Positions 161 to 11,959 of a stretch of 64,000 nt of DNA are shown here, in pieces (positions within the stretch are counted from its first letter, which is position 1; every line of letters begins with the position of its first letter). This stretch comes from Solirubrobacteraceae bacterium (GTDB taxonomy: Bacteria > Actinomycetota > Thermoleophilia > Solirubrobacterales > Solirubrobacteraceae), in contig JAUXSD010000151.1 in assembly GCA_030681525.1 (NCBI GenBank), forward strand, positions 1 to 64,000. Reading direction: 5' to 3'. The notes under the pieces are model-generated. The model had not been told where the DNA came from, searched no databases, and saw only the letters and a program-made list of their open reading frames with translations. Position numbers and translations under genes: made by a program.

Positions 161-1225
161 GTGGCATCAATCGAGTTCGCACCAAGGCAGCATGAGACGG
201 AGCAGATCACTGCTCACGTCATCTGGCTGACGTCAGGACTGAGCTGCGACGGCGACTCGGTCGCCATGACGTCGGCGGTCGATCCCAGCCTCGAGGACAT
301 CATCACGGGCGCGATCCCGGGCATGCCGAAGGTCGTTGCGCATACCCCGGTGCTCGCGTACGAGAACGGCGCCGAGTTCCTGCAGGCCTGGTATGACGCA
401 GAGGCCGGCAAGCTCGATCCGTTCGTCCTCATCGTCGAGGGTTCGATTCCGAACGAGAAGATCAACGGCGAGGGTCACTTCGCCGGGATGGGCGTCAATC
501 CGTCCAACGGCCAGCCGATCACCACGAACGAGTGGATCGATCGCCTCGCTCCGAAGTCCGCCGCAACGGTTGCCCTGGGCACCTGCGCGACGTACGGCGG
601 GATCCCGGCGATGAAGAACAACCCGACGGGCGCGATGGGCCTGTGTGACTACCTCGGCTGGGGCTGGACCTCCGCTGCGGGCATTCCCGTCGTCAACATT
701 CCCGGTTGCCCCGCGCAGCCGGACAACACCACCGAGTCGCTGACGGTTCTCGTCATGGCGCTGGCCGGCATCACGCCGATCCCGGAGCTCGACGAGCAGC
801 ACCGTCTGACGATGCATTTCGGCCGCACCGTGCACGAGGGCTGCAACCGCGCTGCCTTCTACGAGCACGGCAACTTCGCCACGGAGTACGGCTCCGACCA
901 CCGGTGCTTGGTCAAGCTCGGGTGCAAGGGTCCCGTCGTGAAGTGCAACGTTCCGATCCGCGGTTGGCAGAGCGGCGTAGGCGGTTGCCCGAACGTGGGT
1001 GGCATCTGCATGGCTTGCACGATGCCGGGCTTCCCCGACAAGTTCATGCCGTTCATGGACGAGGACCCCAAGGCGAAGCTGTCGTCGAATGGCGCCAAGT
1101 TCACCTATGGCCCGCTGCTGCGCTACTTCCGCAACCAGTCGATCAACAGGATCGGCGACAAGGAGCCCGAGTGGCGCCACCCGCGGAACGAGATCACCAC
1201 CGGCTACACGCCGCACTGGCAGTAA
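161..1225 (+). CDS. hhyS: [NiFe] hydrogenase small subunit, group 1h (HhyS)
   Basis: 354 aa electron-transfer subunit of a high-affinity, oxygen-tolerant uptake hydrogenase. The GTG start has a good ribosome site (GAGGGAGGAG) just upstream. The proximal cluster ligands are visible: C29 in the motif CDGD, then C142 (GTCATYGG) and C183 (GCPAQP). The position normally occupied by a fourth cysteine is D32, the hallmark of the actinobacterial/Ralstonia group 1h enzymes with a 4Fe-4S cluster held by three Cys and one Asp. Further Cys and His residues in the C-terminal half fit the medial and distal clusters. There is no Tat signal and no C-terminal membrane helix, as in other group 1h enzymes, so the subunit is probably cytoplasmic-side. 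It is followed after 21 nt by the large subunit. Confidence 0.95.
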   Translation: MASIEFAPRQHETEQITAHVIWLTSGLSCDGDSVAMTSAVDPSLEDIITGAIPGMPKVVAHTPVLAYENGAEFLQAWYDAEAGKLDPFVLIVEGSIPNEKINGEGHFAGMGVNPSNGQPITTNEWIDRLAPKSAATVALGTCATYGGIPAMKNNPTGAMGLCDYLGWGWTSAAGIPVVNIPGCPAQPDNTTESLTVLVMALAGITPIPELDEQHRLTMHFGRTVHEGCNRAAFYEHGNFATEYGSDHRCLVKLGCKGPVVKCNVPIRGWQSGVGGCPNVGGICMACTMPGFPDKFMPFMDEDPKAKLSSNGAKFTYGPLLRYFRNQSINRIGDKEPEWRHPRNEITTGYTPHWQ

Positions 1226-1246: not shown

Positions 1247-3028
1247 ATGGCCACACTTCAGACACCGTCGACAACCTCCGGGGTTGTCGTCAAGGAGATG
1301 GCGTGGGATCCGATCACCCGTATCGTCGGGTCGCTCGGCATCCACACGGAGATCGACTTCACGAACCGCAAGGTCAACAAGTGCTACAGCACGTCGATGA
1401 TCTTCCGTGGATTCGACATCTTCATGAAGGGCATCGATCCGCGTGATACGCACTTCATCACGAGTCGTATCTGCGGCATCTGCGGCGACAACCACTGTAC
1501 GGTGTCGTGCCTGAACCAGAACATGGCCTATGGGGTCAAGCCGCCGAAGCTCGGCGACTATGCCTTCAACCTGGCCGAGACCGCGGACTACATGTTCGAC
1601 CATGCGATCTTCAACGACTGCATGTGCAACGTGGACTTCTGCGAGCAGATGGTCAAGGAGACCAACCCGTCCGTCCTGGCGAAGGCTGAGAACACCTCGG
1701 CCCCGCACTCGGACATCCACGGGTACAAGACCATCGCCGACATCATGCGCGCGCTGAACCCGTTCACGGGTTCGTTCTACCTGGAGACGCTCGGCGTCGC
1801 CCGGTACACGCGTGAGATGTACTGCCTCTTCGGAGGCCGGCACACGCATCCGTCGACGATCATGCCCGGCGGCTGCAGCGCGGACATCACGCATCAGACG
1901 ATGACCGATTACTACGTGCGGCTCATGCGCTACATGGACTACATCAAGCGCACGGTCCCGATGCACGACGACCTGTATGACTTCTTCTACGAGGCCATGC
2001 CCGGTTACGAGCGCGTCGGATACCGCGACACGGACATCATCTGCTGGGGCGCCTTCGACGACCCGGAGCACGTGACGTACGAGTACAAGTCCATGACGGA
2101 TTGGGGCCGCAAGCGTTTCATCACGCCGGGCCTCGTGTTCAAGGGCGAGCTGATCACGACCGACCTGGTCGAGATCAACCTGGCCATGCGCATCCTCCTG
2201 GGCCACTCGTACTTCGACGACTGGGATCAGGAAGAGACGTTCGTCACGCACGATCCGCTTGGGAACCCGGTGGACAAGCGCCACCCGTGGAACAAGCAGA
2301 CCCTGCCGCGTCCGCAGAAGCGCGATTTCAACGACAAGTACTCGTGGGTCGCTGCCCCGCGCATGTACGACAAGCGCAACGACATCTACGTTGCGACTGA
2401 CACCGGTGGCGGCCCGTTCGCGCGCAACTGGTGCACGGCGAAGGCCGGGCTCGTCGATCTCGGGTACCTCAAGGCAACGGGTCACAGCATCCAGATGGTG
2501 CTGCCGAAGTCGCTGAACATGCCGGAGATGGAGCTCGAGTGGAAGATCCCGCCGTGGTCCAACGCCATCGAGCGTGACCGTGCCCGTACCTACCATCAGC
2601 CGATCTCCGCGCTGATCGGTCTGTACAACCTCGAGAAGGCACTCGTCGAGGTCCGCGCCGGCCGCACGAAGTCGTGGAACAGCTTCACGGTTCCGGAGGA
2701 GGCAATCTCCTGCGGCTTCCATGAGGCCGCTCGCGGCGTCATCAGCCACCACATGGTGATTCGCAAGGGCAAGGTCGCGAACTACCAGCCGTATCCCCCG
2801 ACCCCGTGGAACGGGAACCCGCGCGACAAGTTCGGGACCCCGGGACCCTACGAGGACGCTGTCCAGAACACCCCGATCTTCGAGGAGAACGGGCCGGACA
2901 ACTTCAAGGGGATCGACATCATGCGCGCTGTGCGCTCCTTCGACCCGTGCCTGCCGTGTGGCGTGCACATGTACAACGGCAAGGGCCGTGTCACGAAGGT
3001 TCAGCACACGCCGACGGGGATGTGCTAG
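1247..3028 (+). CDS. hhyL: [NiFe] hydrogenase large subunit, group 1h (HhyL)
   Basis: 593 aa catalytic subunit that carries the Ni-Fe site and splits H2. The N-terminal L1 motif reads TSRICGICGDNHCT with Ni ligands C76 and C79. The C-terminal L2 motif reads SFDPCLPCGVHMY with C568 and C571. Both are close to the published group 1h signature; the L1 segment carries CT where many relatives have AT. A 19-residue tail follows His574 and is presumably removed by the M52 protease encoded at 6138. The ATG is preceded by AAAGAGGAGGAG. Enzymes of this group let dormant aerobic actinobacteria oxidise trace H2 from air, passing electrons to the respiratory chain. Confidence 0.96.
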   Translation: MATLQTPSTTSGVVVKEMAWDPITRIVGSLGIHTEIDFTNRKVNKCYSTSMIFRGFDIFMKGIDPRDTHFITSRICGICGDNHCTVSCLNQNMAYGVKPPKLGDYAFNLAETADYMFDHAIFNDCMCNVDFCEQMVKETNPSVLAKAENTSAPHSDIHGYKTIADIMRALNPFTGSFYLETLGVARYTREMYCLFGGRHTHPSTIMPGGCSADITHQTMTDYYVRLMRYMDYIKRTVPMHDDLYDFFYEAMPGYERVGYRDTDIICWGAFDDPEHVTYEYKSMTDWGRKRFITPGLVFKGELITTDLVEINLAMRILLGHSYFDDWDQEETFVTHDPLGNPVDKRHPWNKQTLPRPQKRDFNDKYSWVAAPRMYDKRNDIYVATDTGGGPFARNWCTAKAGLVDLGYLKATGHSIQMVLPKSLNMPEMELEWKIPPWSNAIERDRARTYHQPISALIGLYNLEKALVEVRAGRTKSWNSFTVPEEAISCGFHEAARGVISHHMVIRKGKVANYQPYPPTPWNGNPRDKFGTPGPYEDAVQNTPIFEENGPDNFKGIDIMRAVRSFDPCLPCGVHMYNGKGRVTKVQHTPTGMC

Positions 3029-3036
3029 GGGCCTAA

Positions 3037-3651
3037 GTGGCTACTGACGCCCAAGCTCCGGAAGAGCTGGTCGAGCGGGTCCAGGATCTCCTGGGCTCGC
3101 TCGACGACATCGCCGATCCGTTCGCGCAGCAGCGCGTTCAGGAGCTCATCGGCGCGGTTCTCGAGTTGTACGGAGCTGGTCTGGACCGGATCCTCGGCGT
3201 CGTAGCTGACGCCGGGGAGGCCGGCCTCCCGATCCGCGACGCGCTGCTCGACGACGGCATCGTCGCCAGCCTGCTGCTGATCCACGGCCTGTTTCCGGTG
3301 CCGCTCGAAGAGCGTGTCATCGAGGCGCTGGACAGCGTGCGGCCGTTTCTGGCGTCGCACGGCGGAAACGTCGAGCTGATCAGCGTCGAAGAGGGCATCG
3401 CGCGCCTGCAGCTGCAGGGCAGCTGCAACGGGTGCCCCTCGTCGGCCGCGACGCTCGAGCATGCGCTGCGCGAGGCGATCGACGCTGCCGCTCCCGACCT
3501 GCTCGGCCTCGAAGTCGAGGGCGCGGTCGGCCTTGAAGACTTGACGGACGACAAGGCCCCCGGCCTGTCGCTGCCGATGGTCCAAGTCGGTGCCACGCTG
3601 CCGATGGCGGACTCGCCGTACACGGAATGTCCCTCGGGCGTGGGTAAGTGA
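3037..3651 (+). CDS. NifU-domain protein of the hydrogenase operon
   Basis: 204 aa, GTG start 9 nt after hhyL. Residues about 90-160 form a NifU C-terminal domain (VRPFLASHGGNVELI, then CNGCPSS with C130 and C133), the type that binds one Fe-S cluster between subunits. The flanking N-terminal region is helical and the C-terminal 40 residues are of unknown nature. In mycobacterial group 1h operons a NifU-type protein in the same place (HhyE, as I recall) is proposed to relay electrons or to help cluster assembly. Which of the two applies here cannot be told from sequence. The stop overlaps the next start (GTGA). Confidence 0.8.
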   Translation: MATDAQAPEELVERVQDLLGSLDDIADPFAQQRVQELIGAVLELYGAGLDRILGVVADAGEAGLPIRDALLDDGIVASLLLIHGLFPVPLEERVIEALDSVRPFLASHGGNVELISVEEGIARLQLQGSCNGCPSSAATLEHALREAIDAAAPDLLGLEVEGAVGLEDLTDDKAPGLSLPMVQVGATLPMADSPYTECPSGVGK

Positions 3652-4271
3652 CTGCCGGCGGTCGCCTGCCGTCCACACTCGTGGCTGGCCTGGGTCGCCT
3701 TGCGCGGCCCGCGCCAGTTGAGGAGACGGAGATCTGCGAGCTGTGCCAGCGGCCGGTCTCAGACGACCACCGCCACCTGCTCGAGCTCGACGAGCGGCGC
3801 ATCCTGTGCGCCTGCGAGCCGTGCATGGCGATCAAGTCGGGTCTGGCGAACTACGCCCCGGTCGGCGTGCGCACGCTGTGGCTCGACGACTTCGTGTTTC
3901 CCGACCAGCTGTGGGCGTCCTTCCAGCTGCCGATCGGTCTGGCGTTCTTCATGCGCTCGACCGGCACGAACACCGTCGTGGCGCTGTACCCGAGCCCGGC
4001 CGGCGCCACCGAGTGCGAGCTGCATCTCGAGAGCTGGGACAAGCTCGTCGAGCTCAATCCGATCCTGCTCGATCTCGAGGCCGACGCCGAGGCGCTCGTC
4101 GTCAACCGCATGGGCGGCGAGCACCAGCACGCGATCGTGCCGATCGACGAGTGCTACCGCCTCGTCGGGCTGATCAAGTCCACCTGGCAGGGCATCTCCG
4201 GCGGCAGCGCCATCGAGGAAGCCGTGCCGAAGTTCTTCGACTACGTACGCCACAAGGCTGGAGTGACATGA
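3648..4271 (+). CDS. Hydrogenase-operon protein of unknown function (DUF5947-like)
   Basis: 207 aa, GTG start overlapping the stop of the NifU-like gene. Four cysteines are arranged as CELC near residue 28 and CACEPC near residue 50, which looks like a small metal-binding knuckle. The rest is a soluble alpha/beta protein with no signal peptide or membrane helix. Size, cysteine pattern and position match what I remember as family DUF5947, which sits beside group 1h hydrogenase genes in actinobacteria; this name is recalled, not searched. Tight coupling to hydrogenase genes suggests a maturation or electron-transfer accessory role, but no reaction can be assigned. Confidence 0.7.
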   Translation: MTAGGRLPSTLVAGLGRLARPAPVEETEICELCQRPVSDDHRHLLELDERRILCACEPCMAIKSGLANYAPVGVRTLWLDDFVFPDQLWASFQLPIGLAFFMRSTGTNTVVALYPSPAGATECELHLESWDKLVELNPILLDLEADAEALVVNRMGGEHQHAIVPIDECYRLVGLIKSTWQGISGGSAIEEAVPKFFDYVRHKAGVT

Positions 4272-4981
4272 CCCCCGAACCCGATCCGGCGGAGGAACGC
4301 TCGAAGGGCAATCGCGATTTCGGCCCCGAGATCACCATCGAGATCCTCGGCGCCGCCCACGAGCCGTTCGCCGCGCAGCCGACGCTGCGCTTCGAGCTCA
4401 GCGTCTTCGAGCCGACCGATCGCCCGATCTACGCGATCGCGCTCAAGGCGCAGATCATGTTCGACCCGGCGCGGCGCGACTACGACGCCGAGACGCGCGA
4501 GAAGCTCTTCGAGATCTTCGGCGCGCCCGAGCGCTGGCCGTCGACGACCCGCAGCTTCCTGTGGTGCCACTCGACCGCGATGGTCAACTCGTTCACGGGC
4601 GCCACGACCTTCGGCCTCGAGGTCCCGTGCACCTCGGATCTGGAGGTTGTCGCCGCGCGGTACGTCTCGGCGCTGCCCGACGGCGACGTCCCGCTCACGA
4701 TGCACTTCACCGGCCGCATCCTGTATCAGGGCCCGGAGCGCAAGGTCCAGGTCGTCCACCTGCCGTGGAGCCTGTCGGCGCAGTATCGGATGCCGGTCAC
4801 CGTCTGGAAGAACATGATCAAGCACCACCACGGCAACTCCGGCTTCGTGCTGCTGCACGACGACACGATCGCGGAGCTTGGCAAGCTCAAGCGCCAACGC
4901 GGCCTGCACAGCTACGACGCGGTCGTGCTGGACCTGCTCGAGCACGCGCCCGCCGGCGATGCGCAAGGAGCCCTGGGATGA
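4268..4981 (+). CDS. Hydrogenase-operon protein of unknown function (DUF6084-like)
   Basis: 237 aa, ATG overlapping the previous stop (ATGA). The sequence is rich in predicted beta strands and aromatic residues (for example FLWCHSTAMVNSF and LPWSLSAQYRMP), with no metal-binding cysteine cluster, no signal peptide and no membrane helix. Order and size fit the family I recall as DUF6084, which follows the DUF5947 gene in actinobacterial hydrogenase clusters. Its beta-rich character would suit a binding or scaffold protein for hydrogenase assembly; that is inference. It is translationally coupled on both sides. Confidence 0.68.
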   Translation: MTPEPDPAEERSKGNRDFGPEITIEILGAAHEPFAAQPTLRFELSVFEPTDRPIYAIALKAQIMFDPARRDYDAETREKLFEIFGAPERWPSTTRSFLWCHSTAMVNSFTGATTFGLEVPCTSDLEVVAARYVSALPDGDVPLTMHFTGRILYQGPERKVQVVHLPWSLSAQYRMPVTVWKNMIKHHHGNSGFVLLHDDTIAELGKLKRQRGLHSYDAVVLDLLEHAPAGDAQGALG

Positions 4982-6141
4982 CGACGAGCAACAAGATCGA
5001 GCCGATCACGCCGGAGACCCCCTCGAACGTCGGCATCACGTCATCGAAGACCCATCTCGAGCGGCTCGTGGACTCCCTGCTGTTCGAGGGCTACGCGCTG
5101 TACCCGTACACGCCGGAGTCGCGCAAGAACGCGACGCCGACCCCGTTCGGGATCGTCTATCCGGCCGACTACGCGCGCAACGAGACGCACGCCTTCGACC
5201 GCATGCAGATGCAGGGCGTCGTGACCGACGCCGACGCGCTCGTCACCGGCGAGGTCCGCTTCCTGCAGGCCGCCGGCGAGAAGCACAAGGCCACCGAGCG
5301 GCGCGTGCAGCTCGGCGCCGCACCCTCGCGCGTGGCGTTCGAGTTCGACGGCGTCGAGGGCTCTGCCGAGCTGCTCCTCGAGCGGCTGCCCAGCGGCATG
5401 GCGCGGGTGACGCTCCAGGTCGAGAACACGACGCCGCTGACCGAGGAGCAGGCCAACGCCGACCGCTACGACGTGCTGCCGCTGGCGATGCTCAACACGC
5501 ACCTGCTCGCCCGTGTCGAGGGCGGCCATAAGTTCCTCTCGCCGCTGGAGCGCGGCGACGACGGCGTCGCCGGCTGCTGCCAGGTCAACACCTGGCCGGT
5601 CCTCGCGACCCGCCAGGACGACGCACTGCTGGCGCCGACGATCATGCTGCCCGACCATCCCGAGATCGCGCCGGAAAGCGTCAACGACTTCTTCGACGGC
5701 ACGGAGATCGAGGAGGCGCTGGTACTGCACATCCAGGCGCTGTCCGACCAGGAGCGCGAGGAGATCGCGGCGCAGGACCCGAAGGTGCGCGAGATGCTCG
5801 CGCGGGCCGATGCCACGACGCCGCAGCAGCTCATGGACCTCCACGGGCGCGTCCGGATCCAGGACCCGCCCGGCGAGCGCGAGTTCACCATCGACGGCGT
5901 CACGTACCGGCGCGGCCAGAAGGTCATCCTGCACCCGCCCGAGAGCGCTGACGTCTACGACAAGATGCTCGACGGCCGCAAGGCGACGATCCATCGCCTG
6001 TTCATCCGCCTCGACGACAACGACGAAGGTGAGCGCCTGCACCTCGGCGTCACGGTCGACGACGATCCGATGCAGGAGATCCTCGGCGAGAGCGGGCGCT
6101 TCCTGTTCTTCTTCTCCGACGAGGTCGAGGTGGTCTCATGA
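4978..6141 (+). CDS. Conserved-looking hydrogenase-operon protein, unknown function
   Basis: 387 aa. The start is the ATG that overlaps the preceding stop (ATGA); the open frame extends further upstream but only as a shadow of the neighbour. The N-terminal part contains LLFEGYALYPYTPESRKN and the body alternates beta strands with charged loops. A CC pair occurs near residue 199 (GCCQVN). An acidic region around residues 235-285 is followed by a compact segment RGQKVILHPP and a last segment ending FLFFFSDEVEVV. I recognise no catalytic motif. It lies between structural and maturation genes, is coupled to both, and is the largest unknown of the operon. Confidence 0.7.
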   Translation: MTTSNKIEPITPETPSNVGITSSKTHLERLVDSLLFEGYALYPYTPESRKNATPTPFGIVYPADYARNETHAFDRMQMQGVVTDADALVTGEVRFLQAAGEKHKATERRVQLGAAPSRVAFEFDGVEGSAELLLERLPSGMARVTLQVENTTPLTEEQANADRYDVLPLAMLNTHLLARVEGGHKFLSPLERGDDGVAGCCQVNTWPVLATRQDDALLAPTIMLPDHPEIAPESVNDFFDGTEIEEALVLHIQALSDQEREEIAAQDPKVREMLARADATTPQQLMDLHGRVRIQDPPGEREFTIDGVTYRRGQKVILHPPESADVYDKMLDGRKATIHRLFIRLDDNDEGERLHLGVTVDDDPMQEILGESGRFLFFFSDEVEVVS

Positions 6142-6767
6142 CCGAGAGCGACGAGGATCGCCAGGCCGAGACCCTGAAGCCGCCGACGGACACCTGGCGG
6201 CCACCCGCGCCCGACGCGCCGCTGGAGCTGCACGAGCCCGACGTCACGAGCCGCCCCAAGCGGGTCCTGATCGCCGGCATCGGCAACTCCTGGCAGCGCG
6301 ACGACGGCTTCGGCAGCGAGGTCGCGCGCCGCATCGAGGCGCGCGAGCTGCCCGATGGCGTCGCCGTCATCGACTTCGGCACCGGCGGGCTGGACCTCGC
6401 CTACCAGGTCATGTACGGCTACGACGGCCTGCTGATGATCGACGTCAGCCGTCAGGGCGGGTCGCCCGGCACCCTGTACGTCATGGAGGTCGACGAGGAC
6501 GAGGTCGCCGGCGGCTCGGTCGAGGATGGCGAGGTCCTCAACCCGCACGGCATGGATCCCGAGACCGTCCTGCGCTTCATCAAGCTCACGGGCGGCTGGC
6601 CCGGCAAGGTCGTCATCGTCGCCTGCGAGCCGCAGACCGTCGAGGAGATGGGCGTCGGCCTGAGCCCGGTCGTCGAGGAGGCCGTCGACCGCGCGGTCGA
6701 CCTCGTGATCGAGACCGCCAAGGAGCTCTTGACGGACGAGGCGTACGCCGTCGACGAGTCCACGTAG
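6138..6767 (+). CDS. Hydrogenase maturation protease (M52 family)
   Basis: 209 aa endopeptidase that should trim the C-terminal tail of HhyL after Ni insertion. The M52 signature GIGNSWQRDDGFG lies near residue 40, and the other nickel-sensing ligands are present as an Asp in LMIDVSRQ and a His in NPHGMDPE. The first 35 residues are a Pro-rich extension not needed for the fold. The ATG overlaps the upstream stop (ATGA). A 16-nt gap separates it from hypA. Confidence 0.92.
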   Translation: MTESDEDRQAETLKPPTDTWRPPAPDAPLELHEPDVTSRPKRVLIAGIGNSWQRDDGFGSEVARRIEARELPDGVAVIDFGTGGLDLAYQVMYGYDGLLMIDVSRQGGSPGTLYVMEVDEDEVAGGSVEDGEVLNPHGMDPETVLRFIKLTGGWPGKVVIVACEPQTVEEMGVGLSPVVEEAVDRAVDLVIETAKELLTDEAYAVDEST

Positions 6768-6783
6768 CGCAGGATCGAGCCGC

Positions 6784-7149
6784 ATGCACGAGTTCGACCT
6801 CTCCAGCGCGATCGTCCAGACGGTCAACAAGCACGCGGCCGGGCGCAGGGTCACGCACATCACGCTGCGCGTCGGCCGGCTGCGTCAGGTCGTCAAGGAC
6901 ACGCTGCTGTTCTACCTCGCGATCGTGGGCAAGGACACCCCGTGCGAGGGCGCTACATTGGAGATCATCGACGTGCCCGCCGTCCTGCGCTGCAAGAGCT
7001 GCAAGAACGAGTGGGAGATCGAGATCCCGGCCTTCATCTGCGGCACGTGCGGACCGGGTGGCGTCGAGGTCGCGACGGGCGAAGAGTTCATGGTCGAGTC
7101 GATCGAAGTCGAAGACGAGGAGGAGGCGGCATGCACCGCACCAAGGTGA
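6784..7149 (+). CDS. hypA: Nickel-insertion zinc protein HypA
   Basis: 121 aa. It starts MHEFDLSS, where His2 and the N-terminal amine bind nickel in this family. A structural zinc site is formed by C70, C73, C86 and C89 (CKSC and CGTC). HypA works with HypB to deliver Ni to the hydrogenase large subunit. The reading frame overlaps the start of hypB by 19 nt. Confidence 0.95.
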   Translation: MHEFDLSSAIVQTVNKHAAGRRVTHITLRVGRLRQVVKDTLLFYLAIVGKDTPCEGATLEIIDVPAVLRCKSCKNEWEIEIPAFICGTCGPGGVEVATGEEFMVESIEVEDEEEAACTAPR

Positions 7150-7895
7150 GGGTCGTCGAGGACGCGCTCGACGCCAACAACACGATTGCGGGCGCCAACG
7201 CCAGCGACTTCGAGCGGTCCAACGTGACCGTCGTCAACCTCATGAGCGCCCCCGGCGCCGGCAAGACGACGCTGCTCGAGCGCTCGCTGGAGGGCATCGC
7301 CGAGGAAGGTCTGCGCGTCGGCGTCCTGGAGGGCGACGTCCAGGGCAGCTTCGACGCCGACCGCCTGTCGGTGCTGCACATCCCGGTCGTCCAGCTCAAC
7401 ACCGACAACGGCTTCGGCGGCGAGTGCCACCTCGACGCGAACATGGTCCGTTCGGCGCTGCCGGCCGTGCCGCTCGACGACATCGACGTGCTCATCGTCG
7501 AGAACGTCGGCAACCTCGTCTGCCCGGCCGAGTTTCGCATCGGCGAGGACTCGCGGATCATGGTCTGCTCGGTCACGGAGGGCGAGGACAAGCCGCTGAA
7601 GTACCCGCTCATGTTCCGCGCGTGCGAGCTCGTCGTAATCAACAAGGTCGACCTGCTGCAGTATCTCGACTTCGACGTCGACCGCCTCGAGGCGAACATC
7701 AAGCAGGTCAACCACGACGCCACGGTCATGCGCGTCAGCGCGAAGACCGGCGAGGGCGTCGACGAGTTCCGTGCATGGCTGAAGGCGCTTCCCGCCCGGA
7801 TCGCCACCGAAGCGGCCCACGATCACGATCACGATCGCGGCGATCACGACCACGATCACCACGACCACGCCGAGCAGCAGCCCGCGACGGCGTGA
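7131..7895 (+). CDS. hypB: Nickel-insertion GTPase HypB
   Basis: 254 aa SIMIBI-class GTPase. The P-loop is SAPGAGKTT near residue 40, followed by LEGDVQ, and the guanine-specificity motif is NKVD. The ATG at 7131 lies inside the end of hypA and restores the usual HypB N-terminus. A His/Asp-rich stretch (HDHDHDRGDHDHDHHDH) stands at the C-terminus; many HypB proteins carry their His-rich nickel store at the N-terminus instead. Coupled by a GTGA overlap to the next gene. Confidence 0.95.
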   Translation: MHRTKVRVVEDALDANNTIAGANASDFERSNVTVVNLMSAPGAGKTTLLERSLEGIAEEGLRVGVLEGDVQGSFDADRLSVLHIPVVQLNTDNGFGGECHLDANMVRSALPAVPLDDIDVLIVENVGNLVCPAEFRIGEDSRIMVCSVTEGEDKPLKYPLMFRACELVVINKVDLLQYLDFDVDRLEANIKQVNHDATVMRVSAKTGEGVDEFRAWLKALPARIATEAAHDHDHDRGDHDHDHHDHAEQQPATA

Positions 7896-9130
7896 CGCAG
7901 GCGCCCGGTGGTGTGAGACCGACCACCAGCAGCACCGGCGCCGTGCGGGTCGAGGCCCGGCTGCGCGAGCGCAGCGAGGCCAACGGGCGCTTCTTCACCG
8001 CTGAGGCCGAGCGCCTCGCCCGGCTGTGCCACAAGATGGCCGAGCGCTTCGCCCGCGCCGGCCGTCTCGTCGCGTTCGGCGCGACGCCGGCCGACCGCTC
8101 CGACGCGCGCCACGTCGCCGTCGAGTTCGTCCATCCGGTGATCGTCGGCAAGAGCGCGCTCCCCGCGCTGGCGCTGGCCGGCGAGGGCGGCCGGGTGGCC
8201 GACCAGGTCGCGCTGGAGGCCGAGGGCGACGACATCGCGATGGCCTTCGGGGGCCATCCCGACACGCTCGCGGCGCTCGCCGCGGCGCGCGAGCGCGGCT
8301 GCCTGACCGTGGCGTTCGTGCCGGACTCCGGCGCCGAATGGGAGTTCGACCTCTCCGACGTGGCGGACCCGCTCATCCGCCAGGAGGTCGTCGAGACGCT
8401 CTACCACCTGCTGTGGGAGCTCGTCCACATCTTCCTCGACCACCGCGGGCTGCTGGAGGGCCGCGCGGCCAAGCCCGTGCACGACTCCGGCGCGTCGAGC
8501 TTCCTGTATCCGTTCCTCGGCCAGCAGGAGCACAACCTCGACGACATCCTCGACGACGTGCGCAAGTCGATGCTGCTCAAGGCCGACGAGATCACGGCGC
8601 TGCGCACGCAGACGCTGCACGACGGCTGCGACACGCTGCTGGCCGCCGCGGCGGTTCTGCGCGACCGCCTCGACGCCGGCGGCCGGCTCATCGCGTTGGG
8701 CAACGGCGGCTCGGCGACCGACGCGATGGATGTCGTCGCCGACTTCCACACGCCGATGTTCGGCGGCCCCGCCCGCCGCGCGCTGGACCTCACCGAGGAC
8801 ACCGGGATCATCACGGCGGTCGCCAACGACATCGGCACCGAGGAGATCTTCCAGCGCCAGGTCATCGCCTACGGGCGCGAGGGCGACGTCCTGCTGGCGA
8901 TGTCGACGAGCGGCAACTCGCTGAGCGTCCTGCTCGCGCTCGAGGAGGCGCGCAAGCGCAAGCTCGTGACGGTCGCGTTCGTCGGCTACGACGGCGGCAA
9001 GGTCCTGGCCAACAACCTGGCCGACTACGTCGTCGTCAGCGGCTCGCAGAACATCCCACGCATCCAGGAGGCGCACGCCAGCGCCTACCACGTGCTGCGC
9101 GAGCTCGTCGAGCTTGCGCCGCCGTCGTGA
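7892..9130 (+). CDS. Tandem SIS-domain protein (phosphoheptose-isomerase-like)
   Basis: 412 aa, GTG start overlapping the hypB stop. Two SIS sugar-isomerase folds are joined in one chain. The N-terminal copy (about 30-190) is divergent and lacks a clear phosphosugar loop. The C-terminal copy (about 215-410) has the GmhA-like motif GNGGSATDAMDVVADF and the serine-rich loop MSTSGNS. GmhA makes D-glycero-D-manno-heptose 7-phosphate, but there are no other heptose genes here; instead the gene is wedged between hypB and hypF with overlaps on both sides. A role in hydrogenase maturation is therefore likely but its substrate is unknown. Confidence 0.85.
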   Translation: MTQAPGGVRPTTSSTGAVRVEARLRERSEANGRFFTAEAERLARLCHKMAERFARAGRLVAFGATPADRSDARHVAVEFVHPVIVGKSALPALALAGEGGRVADQVALEAEGDDIAMAFGGHPDTLAALAAARERGCLTVAFVPDSGAEWEFDLSDVADPLIRQEVVETLYHLLWELVHIFLDHRGLLEGRAAKPVHDSGASSFLYPFLGQQEHNLDDILDDVRKSMLLKADEITALRTQTLHDGCDTLLAAAAVLRDRLDAGGRLIALGNGGSATDAMDVVADFHTPMFGGPARRALDLTEDTGIITAVANDIGTEEIFQRQVIAYGREGDVLLAMSTSGNSLSVLLALEEARKRKLVTVAFVGYDGGKVLANNLADYVVVSGSQNIPRIQEAHASAYHVLRELVELAPPS

Positions 9131-11449: not shown

Positions 11450-11959
11450 ATGGACAGCTTCGCGCTGAGCGAGCGCTGGAACGGCTGGACGAACCTCGAC
11501 GTCATGGTGCAGGCGGCCCGCGCGGCCGCCGCGGCCGGGCCGCTGGATCCGCTCGTCTGCGACGTCACGCTCGAGTGGGACATGGACGAGGACACGACGC
11601 TGCACAGCCTCGAGGAGCTGCAGGCGCTGCTGCGCAGCGGAGCCGAGCCGATGACGCTGGAGATCATGGTGGCGCACGTCGTCGAGGAGGAGGCCAGCCT
11701 CGTCATCGACTTCAACGGGCGCTGGCTGCAGATCCGTGGGGCCGGAACCGACTGGAGCCGCGCCCGCCAGGCCTACGATGCCGCACAGGTCGAGTTCGCC
11801 CTGGAGTACGGCATCACGACGTTCCGGCTGCCCACGCCGCCGGTCGACACGGTCACGGAGGTCCGGCGGCGCCACGGCGTCAAGAACCAGGACCCGGGGC
11901 GCGCCGAGAAGGATGTCTTCAGGCCCGAGCCCGAGCCGGGCCCCGGGCCTCACGCCTGA
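11450..11959 (+). CDS. Hypothetical protein
   Basis: 169 aa acidic protein with no signal peptide or membrane helix. Central helices (residues 20-70 and 95-125) end in a Pro/Glu-rich tail. I recognise no family. The ATG is 6 nt after a TATGCT -10 box, so it is likely a separate, leaderless transcript rather than part of the hydrogenase operon. The 3' end overlaps the convergent gene by 10 nt. Confidence 0.7.
   Translation: MDSFALSERWNGWTNLDVMVQAARAAAAAGPLDPLVCDVTLEWDMDEDTTLHSLEELQALLRSGAEPMTLEIMVAHVVEEEASLVIDFNGRWLQIRGAGTDWSRARQAYDAAQVEFALEYGITTFRLPTPPVDTVTEVRRRHGVKNQDPGRAEKDVFRPEPEPGPGPHA

Follow-up and report, generated by a model that had tools for sequence, protein, structure and literature searches.

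Three gene families tied to group 1h [NiFe]-hydrogenase operons, and their division into two blocks

What do three conserved hypothetical genes do inside an operon for a group 1h [NiFe]-hydrogenase, given that the enzymes of this group are held to be a main biological sink for atmospheric H2? The question is raised by a stretch of 64,000 nucleotides from a Solirubrobacteraceae bacterium (assembly GCA_030681525.1, contig JAUXSD010000151.1), called here the window, where the trio lies between the gene of a NifU-like protein and that of a maturation protease. Of all that is uncharacterised in 1h operons, these three genes recur most consistently, and the full gene set matters for making O2-insensitive 1h hydrogenases in other hosts. 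Judged by its sequence, the hydrogenase of the window belongs to group 1h (formerly group 5). Its small subunit gene hhyS (161..1225; PF14720 and PF01058) and its large subunit gene hhyL (1247..3028; PF00374) lie on the forward strand, as do all the genes described below, and their closest solved chains are HofK (5aa5_A, E=1.5e-142) and HofG (5aa5_C, E=7.6e-278) of entry 5aa5, the only one matched at E<=1e-100 for the large subunit and E<=1e-60 for the small subunit. Both the L1 and L2 motifs of group 1h, as defined in PMC5364354, were found in hhyL (RICGICGDNH and SFDPCLPCGVH), the tree places the enzyme with those of C. necator, mycobacteria, and streptomycetes with a support of 100, and the N-terminus of HhyS as read, MASIEFAPRQHETEQITAHVIWLTSGLSCDGD, has no twin-arginine (RR) motif, as expected of this group.

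The operon continues after a short gap without overlap (hhyL ends at 3028) with the NifU-like gene (3037..3651; PF01106, E=2.8e-19), from which an unbroken chain of 4-nt stop/start overlaps runs through the trio to the protease, with the letters GTGA at 3648-3651 and ATGA at 4268-4271, 4978-4981, and 6138-6141, so the joining of the three genes to each other and to their neighbours claimed in an earlier note on this DNA is borne out at all four junctions. The first gene of the trio (3648..4271, GTG start, 207 aa) encodes a DUF5947 protein (PF19372, E=8.9e-60, 201.8 bits against a cut-off of 25) and the next one (4268..4981, 237 aa) a DUF6084 protein (PF19562, E=1.1e-67, 228.1 bits against a cut-off of 25), which are the two family names that the note had suggested, both of them rightly. 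The third, named here G3 (4978..6141, 387 aa), was described there as lacking any known motif, and it indeed has no Pfam match at E<=0.1 and no NCBIfam match, although a scan of genome contigs gathered 561 relatives of it. Downstream follow the maturation protease of the HycI/HyaD type (6138..6767; PF01750, E=1.8e-20, and TIGR00072 over its cut-off), hypA (6784..7149; PF01155, E=2.5e-28), and hypB (7131..7895; TIGR00073, E=5.3e-76, over its cut-off).

Wide occurrence of these families outside hydrogenase operons had been named by the earlier note as the observation that would speak against a dedicated role, and it was looked for in 396 Actinomycetota genomes, in 72,556 records of plasmids, and in Chloroflexota sampled by HhyL, where 18 of the 1h loci were informative. 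The claim stood in all three sets, with one exception coming from the literature, namely the DUF6084 protein of antibiotic clusters called KirHIII/AurHIII (PMC9361827). A full-length 1h large subunit is present in 39 of the 396 Actinomycetota genomes, and of these 39, 38 contain DUF5947, 35 DUF6084, 38 G3, and 34 all three; read in the opposite direction, an HhyL match of at least 60% accompanies 39 of the 41 genomes with DUF5947, 36 of the 38 with DUF6084, and 39 of the 41 with G3. Three genomes have trio matches and no HhyL match at that level, two because of contig ends (G169 and G194) and one because of a decayed operon (G339), a state also found in G104; another contig end is that of G028, where DUF5947 seems truly missing because only about 270 bp separates the NifU and DUF6084 matches. 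In the Chloroflexota, 16 of the 18 informative loci carry the three genes. The association of the trio with group 1h is nearly exclusive in the Actinomycetota sample, and it weighs heavily on the reading that these genes are operon passengers or general housekeeping genes merely co-inherited with hydrogenase islands. That reading could draw on the fact that such operons are carried by plasmids in several phyla, and on the DUF6084 of the antibiotic clusters; against it, nearly all trio matches of the 396 genomes fall in 1h operon context, the gene order is conserved across many phyla, and the trio does not accompany other NiFe groups present in the same genomes. In addition, none of ten loci belonging to other NiFe groups holds any of the three, while eight of the ten have a weak-to-clear NifU-like match. 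We regard it as already largely excluded and very improbable.

The steady and dedicated module proposed in the note survives as a group-1h-dedicated set, as the 34 of 39 genomes with all three genes indicate, but not as one module, given that the set divides into two sub-modules, a NifU-DUF5947-DUF6084 block and a G3-protease block. Same-strand adjacency is found in 77 of 77 loci for DUF5947-DUF6084, in 78 of 81 for DUF6084-G3, and in 82 of 85 for G3-protease, most of these loci having been picked by G3, and this adjacency is more than chance. The seam between the two blocks is visible in three Pseudonocardiaceae loci, where the structural genes with NifU-DUF5947-DUF6084 stand on the strand opposite to the G3-protease pair, and again in Nannocystis and one Planctomyces genome, where the operon reads hhyS-hhyL-G3-protease and neither DUF5947 nor DUF6084 was found anywhere in the genome. 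In the tree, the four loci that lack NifU-DUF5947-DUF6084 group together (UFBoot 100) inside a range of lineages with the full set, so the block was probably lost once and as a whole, while G3 and the protease were mostly kept. Since this clade retains intact L1 and L2 motifs, some 1h enzymes do without the NifU-containing block. A PAS-domain gene was seen only beside the operons of this clade (Nannocystis, Planctomycetota, and Chloroflexota). Strict co-occurrence, which the note had named as support for its claim, thus fails for DUF5947 and DUF6084 in that clade, and it fails once more for DUF6084 in a Streptomyces/Catenulispora clade, where G3 is located upstream of hhyS and apart from the protease. 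Together with one bare hydrogenase copy (L170) that has neither a G3 nor a protease match nearby, the latter arrangement makes the G3-protease link strong, though not absolute.

Within the NifU-containing block, DUF5947 has a candidate metal site (C30-x2-C33, H41-x-H43, and C54-x-C56-x2-C59; 3735..3824). The CxxC-CxxC cysteine set noticed earlier is real, and it is part of a fuller motif, CxxC-x7-HxH-x10-CxCxxC, present in 99 of the 99 loci with a DUF5947 match, with all seven Cys/His invariant in an alignment of 49 sequences. This is neither a Rieske motif nor a rubredoxin one with its CPxCG pair: the knuckles read CELC and CACEPC instead of the CPxCG of rubredoxin and HoxR, and there is no Pfam rubredoxin match. 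The AlphaFold model of DUF5947 (pLDDT 91.5) gave no Foldseek match at E<=0.001, the weak matches being ribosome chains over 37 residues of a small domain, with low confidence; single and profile searches of the PDB yielded no convincing sequence relative for any of the three proteins, and the match of DUF5947 to TA0938 (2fqh, E=0.53) is merely a lead. In contrast to this constancy, 36 of 79 HhyE proteins have lost the NifU CxxC. The protein of the window has retained it and, with its NifU-like domain and one CxxC, is an HhyE, in a short form of 204 aa without the C-terminal domain that carries two further CxxC; truncated forms of this kind have been described (PMC6883350). A reading of mycobacterial HhyE as a fusion of NifU with DUF5947 was considered and ruled out, given that M. 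intracellulare has a separate DUF5947 besides the two-CxxC C-terminal domain of its HhyE.

The partner of the protease, G3, has a beta-rich N-terminal part in its AlphaFold model (pLDDT 84) and a detachable, apparently SH3-like C-terminal domain (about residues 298-387; 5869..6138) that has its own gene in some lineages, at 17 other loci. In a Foldseek comparison, part of G3 comes closest to the beta chains of nitrile hydratase (E=4.6e-3 at best, prob 0.98), with a whole-chain TM of just 0.14-0.16, and hhalign gives a probability of 33-54% over 34-73 columns of the SH3-like part; there is no match to the corresponding Pfam family, PF02211, at E<=0.1. We have therefore set aside a homology of the C-terminus with nitrile hydratase beta and retain a probable likeness of fold. 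Likewise, DUF6084 is not a homologue of the beta-rich part of G3 (hhalign probability below 3%).

From these computed features, that is, co-occurrence, gene order, block loss, the invariant motif, and the fold class of the models, we tentatively favour, at somewhat less than an even chance, a role of the three proteins as accessory factors dedicated to the assembly of group 1h hydrogenases in two functional blocks. On the side of the small subunit, NifU-like HhyE, DUF5947, and DUF6084 would work as one unit, whose most likely task is to load or hold the iron-sulfur clusters of HhyS while the enzyme is being assembled, DUF5947 being the presumed metal-bearing partner. G3 and the C-terminal protease would act on the side of the large subunit, most likely in chaperoning that is specific to 1h enzymes while the active site is completed and the C-terminus clipped, and the SH3-like domain of G3 would serve for docking. 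The biochemical step of each block is inferred, and so, from gene linkage, is the subunit that it serves. The contrast between the constancy of the DUF5947 motif and the frequent loss of the HhyE CxxC counts for this assembly role; the reported co-localisation of HhyE with both hydrogenase subunits on native gels (PMC6883350, citing earlier work) counts against it, as it fits a stable subunit, and so does the existence of a 1h clade that manages without the NifU-containing block. HhyE is, furthermore, essential for H2 oxidation by Hhy (PMC6883350).

Two other readings would keep these proteins at work in the finished enzyme. DUF5947, with HhyE and DUF6084, might be the physiological electron outlet, drawing electrons from the distal HhyS cluster and passing them on towards the quinone pool, as its invariant cysteines and histidines, the lack of a cytochrome b subunit in 1h operons, and the reported co-migration of HhyE with HhyLS (PMC6883350) would allow; moreover, according to PMC6883350, Schafer et al. 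2013 proposed that PHG067, which is DUF5947 by the gene order of pHG1, accepts electrons, and MSMEG_2717 has been named as its homologue. We hold this to be rather unlikely, considering that an artificial electron acceptor could not bypass the loss of HhyE in M. smegmatis (PMC6883350), that the motif belongs to no rubredoxin or Rieske type and the small-domain fold matches are low-confidence ribosomal proteins, that DUF5947 matches no PDB chain, 5aa5 being found through HofK and HofG only, and that an entire 1h clade does without it. Alternatively, the trio might belong to the mature complex in the cell, either as stable structural subunits or as factors that dock it to the membrane or to quinone, and be lost on purification, in a role like that of HucM of group 2a, an example of such a docking subunit in Huc (PMC13098282). 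The linkage to structural genes throughout and the presence of the trio in both branches of the earliest division in the 1h tree, as drawn, agree with such subunits; we consider them improbable, since the solved Hof entry has no chain matching the trio, G3 mostly adjoins a maturation gene, the protease, and Pfam, NCBIfam, PDB, and Foldseek searches revealed no likeness to a known membrane or quinone-binding protein. It is that solved entry, along with the failed bypass of HhyE loss, that tips us towards assembly over a stable subunit. A broader proposal, to which we give a limited chance, is that group 1h has a private two-part assembly system, in which NifU-DUF5947-DUF6084 is the ancestral block, for iron-sulfur clusters and electron exit, and G3, from a new family, is the chaperone of the large subunit, and that the clade without the former has altered its affinity or the way its electrons leave, perhaps with the PAS-domain gene. 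The two-block split, with lineages naturally missing one block, makes the role of these conserved hypotheticals specifically testable.

Among known systems, the factors of the group 1d MBH of C. necator (HoxR and others) are alike in the way they work, as a cysteine-rich protein plus extra factors serving one O2-tolerant hydrogenase; no relation to them in sequence was found, DUF5947 lacks the rubredoxin motif, and 1h operons are not known to include the HoxLOQRTV set. The hhy operon of M. smegmatis (MSMEG_2720-2713) resembles the window in being group 1h, in having HhyE, and in the hypothetical genes that precede its M52 peptidase gene (PMC5445863), and differs in the two-CxxC C-terminal domain of its HhyE (PMC6883350), which the NifU-like protein of the window lacks. 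DUF5947 and DUF6084 are Pfam families without an assigned function, of which the window proteins are full members; the present analysis links both to 1h operons and groups them with NifU in one block. The nearest counterpart is the hof operon of C. necator H16 (pHG1 PHG064-070), with the same order hofK-hofG-NifU-DUF5947-DUF6084-unknown-protease and, in HofG and HofK, the closest solved chains; it differs in having lost the NifU CxxC and in the order of the hyp genes that follow. There, PHG066-069 were already named as ORFs of unknown function beside hofKG, and PHG066, PHG067, and PHG070 are in the top 50 genes with hofKG up (PMC4377017), which we count as co-expression support for an accessory role. 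The set itself is thus known from C. necator, and what is new is its strict association with group 1h and its split into two blocks.

A group 1h [NiFe]-hydrogenase operon opens the window on the plus strand, with hhyS (161-1225) and hhyL (1247-3028, with the 1h signature motifs present) followed by the NifU-like gene (3037-3651), DUF5947 (3648-4271), DUF6084 (4268-4981), the gene of a 387-aa protein called here G3 (4978-6141) and the maturation protease (6138-6767), and then by hypA, hypB, a SIS-domain reading frame and hypF. The earlier note had described the three genes before the protease, the trio, as chained to each other and to their neighbours by stop/start overlaps, and this is correct, with 4 nt at each of the four junctions that link the NifU-like gene, the trio and the protease; DUF5947 and DUF6084 were also rightly named (Pfam 8.9e-60 and 1.1e-67), and G3, noted as having no known motif, indeed has no Pfam or NCBIfam match. 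The only solved relative of HhyL at E<=1e-100 is HofG of Cupriavidus necator (5aa5). Between hypB and hypF, a coding stretch at 7900-9130, in the frame of an ORF listed as 5513-9130, resembles a double SIS domain of the phosphosugar isomerase type, named by reading alone, and, of 85 1h loci exceeding 15 kb, 55 were found to contain a SIS gene; an ORF of 169 aa after hypF (11450-11959) has no match in Pfam or NCBIfam.

The proposed dedication of the trio to group 1h proved right in Actinomycetota genomes, plasmid records and Chloroflexota loci. Among 396 Actinomycetota genomes, DUF5947 matches in 41, DUF6084 in 38 and G3 in 41, and the 39 genomes with full-length HhyL (at least 60%) contain them in 38, 35 and 38 cases, respectively, with all three in 34 (Fisher P ~1e-41 to 1e-47, uncorrected for relatedness); DUF6084 matches adjoin DUF5947 in 37/39. 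No trio gene occurs in those Actinomycetota genomes having only a large subunit (LSU) of another group (36-45% identity), with the sole exception of G194, where the contig bearing the trio is cut, and ten other-group NiFe loci read directly have a NifU-like match in eight cases and the trio in none. Loci L173-L182, of a different NiFe group (~41-45% LSU identity), are mostly arranged as small subunit (SSU), gap, LSU, protease-like gene, NifU and protease, sharing with 1h operons the NifU-like partner and not the trio. The window's own genome has one copy of each DUF despite its further NiFe hydrogenases, which are a tandem SSU-LSU-SSU-LSU pair (C120; L127) and an LSU (C199; L128), both without the trio. 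DUF5947 and G3 match the same 12 plasmid records and DUF6084 10 of these, all five annotated plasmid loci examined being 1h operons, while the 18 informative Chloroflexota loci, sampled by HhyL and not by the trio, hold all three genes in 16 cases, G3 alone in one and none in one. A literature exception is KirHIII/AurHIII, the DUF6084 protein of the kirromycin and aurodox clusters (PMC9361827). Two 1h operons are decayed (L131 in G339, L133 in G104): in one, part of the small subunit, NifU and DUF5947 remain and the large subunit is gone, and the other is reduced to fragments of the two subunits.

The idea of a single strict three-gene module was wrong, since there are two blocks, NifU-DUF5947-DUF6084 (block 1) and G3 with the protease (block 2), and one clade lacks block 1 and another DUF6084. 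A G3 scan gave 561 relatives, of which 80 from many phyla were kept, and HMM mapping found SSU-LSU-NifU-DUF5947-DUF6084-G3-protease as the order in most of these loci, a sample biased to G3. At the loci of Nannocystis (L041) and of a Planctomyces MAG (L095) the order is LSU-G3-protease, and neither DUF5947 nor DUF6084 occurs anywhere in these two genomes; in Chloroflexota one locus has G3 only and another neither G3 nor block 1. The tree places these four in a single clade (UFBoot support 100) that lies amid full-set lineages, which is consistent with block 1 having been lost once, as a block; a second nested clade, of Streptomyces/Catenulispora type, is without DUF6084, and three Pseudonocardiaceae loci carry G3 and the protease as a pair on the strand opposite to the hydrogenase-NifU-DUF5947-DUF6084 genes. 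In the 1h tree as drawn, whose root is uncertain because of long outgroup branches, both of the lineages that part at the deepest split contain the full set, and this suggests that the full set is ancestral to group 1h. Exactly four of the 1h loci examined, those without block 1 (L041; L095; L167, 11337-12989, plus strand; L170, 6660-8345, minus strand), contain a PAS-domain/sensor-kinase-like gene (motif IPAVTFxAxL), in each case near the hydrogenase operon. In the Chloroflexota genome G645, a full-set 1h operon coexists with a bare hhySL pair of the block-less clade (L166, L170).

DUF5947 carries CxxC-x7-HxH-x10-CxCxxC, with seven residues invariant in 49 diverse sequences and the motif present in 99/99 loci, whereas the NifU CxxC is missing from 36 of the 79 NifU-like partners and extra C-terminal CxxC are kept by only 32; judged from these sequences, the putative DUF5947 metal site is thus the one preserved wherever block 1 exists. 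The DUF5947 model, predicted with high confidence (pLDDT 91.5), found no convincing fold relative. Given this conserved metal-site chemistry, the NifU-type scaffold as companion and a loss that spares the LSU motifs, block 1 would serve the small-subunit side; the same loss indicates that it is not needed for the NiFe site in every lineage. A serious rival is that block 1 works as an electron relay, and for MSMEG_2717 of Mycobacterium smegmatis, a homologue of PHG067 and so by position DUF5947, a possible role as electron acceptor has been raised (PMC6883350). However, the solved 1h entry was found here only through HofK and HofG, no PDB chain matches the trio, and supplying an artificial acceptor fails to rescue the HhyE (NifU-like) mutant (PMC6883350); for these reasons assembly is preferred to a pure electron relay.

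G3 would act in large-subunit maturation, given that it accompanies the protease and mostly persists where block 1 is missing. In its model, with domains named from secondary structure, a helical linker joins a beta domain at the N-terminus to an SH3-like domain at the C-terminus; the 53 aligned relatives of G3 gave no consistent family, and the best Foldseek matches were nitrile hydratase beta chains (E ~5e-3), a kinship that profile comparison did not establish. In 17 loci, mostly of Chloroflexota and Bacteroidota (L153-L172, L032, L040, L083), a few of which may be frameshifts, the SH3-like part has its own reading frame beside that of G3, so that it behaves like an independent domain.

Conserved unknown genes at 1h operons are already known: in C. 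necator, PHG066-069 beside hofKG had been recorded as ORFs of unknown function (PMC4377017), M. smegmatis Hhy activity requires HhyE, NifU-like with two CxxC (PMC6883350), and a microarray listed MSMEG_2716, 2715 and 2714 as changed together with hhyL and hhyS (PMC5445863). The window operon is a normal member of this known kind, to which our analysis adds the block structure and the lineages serving as natural deletions.
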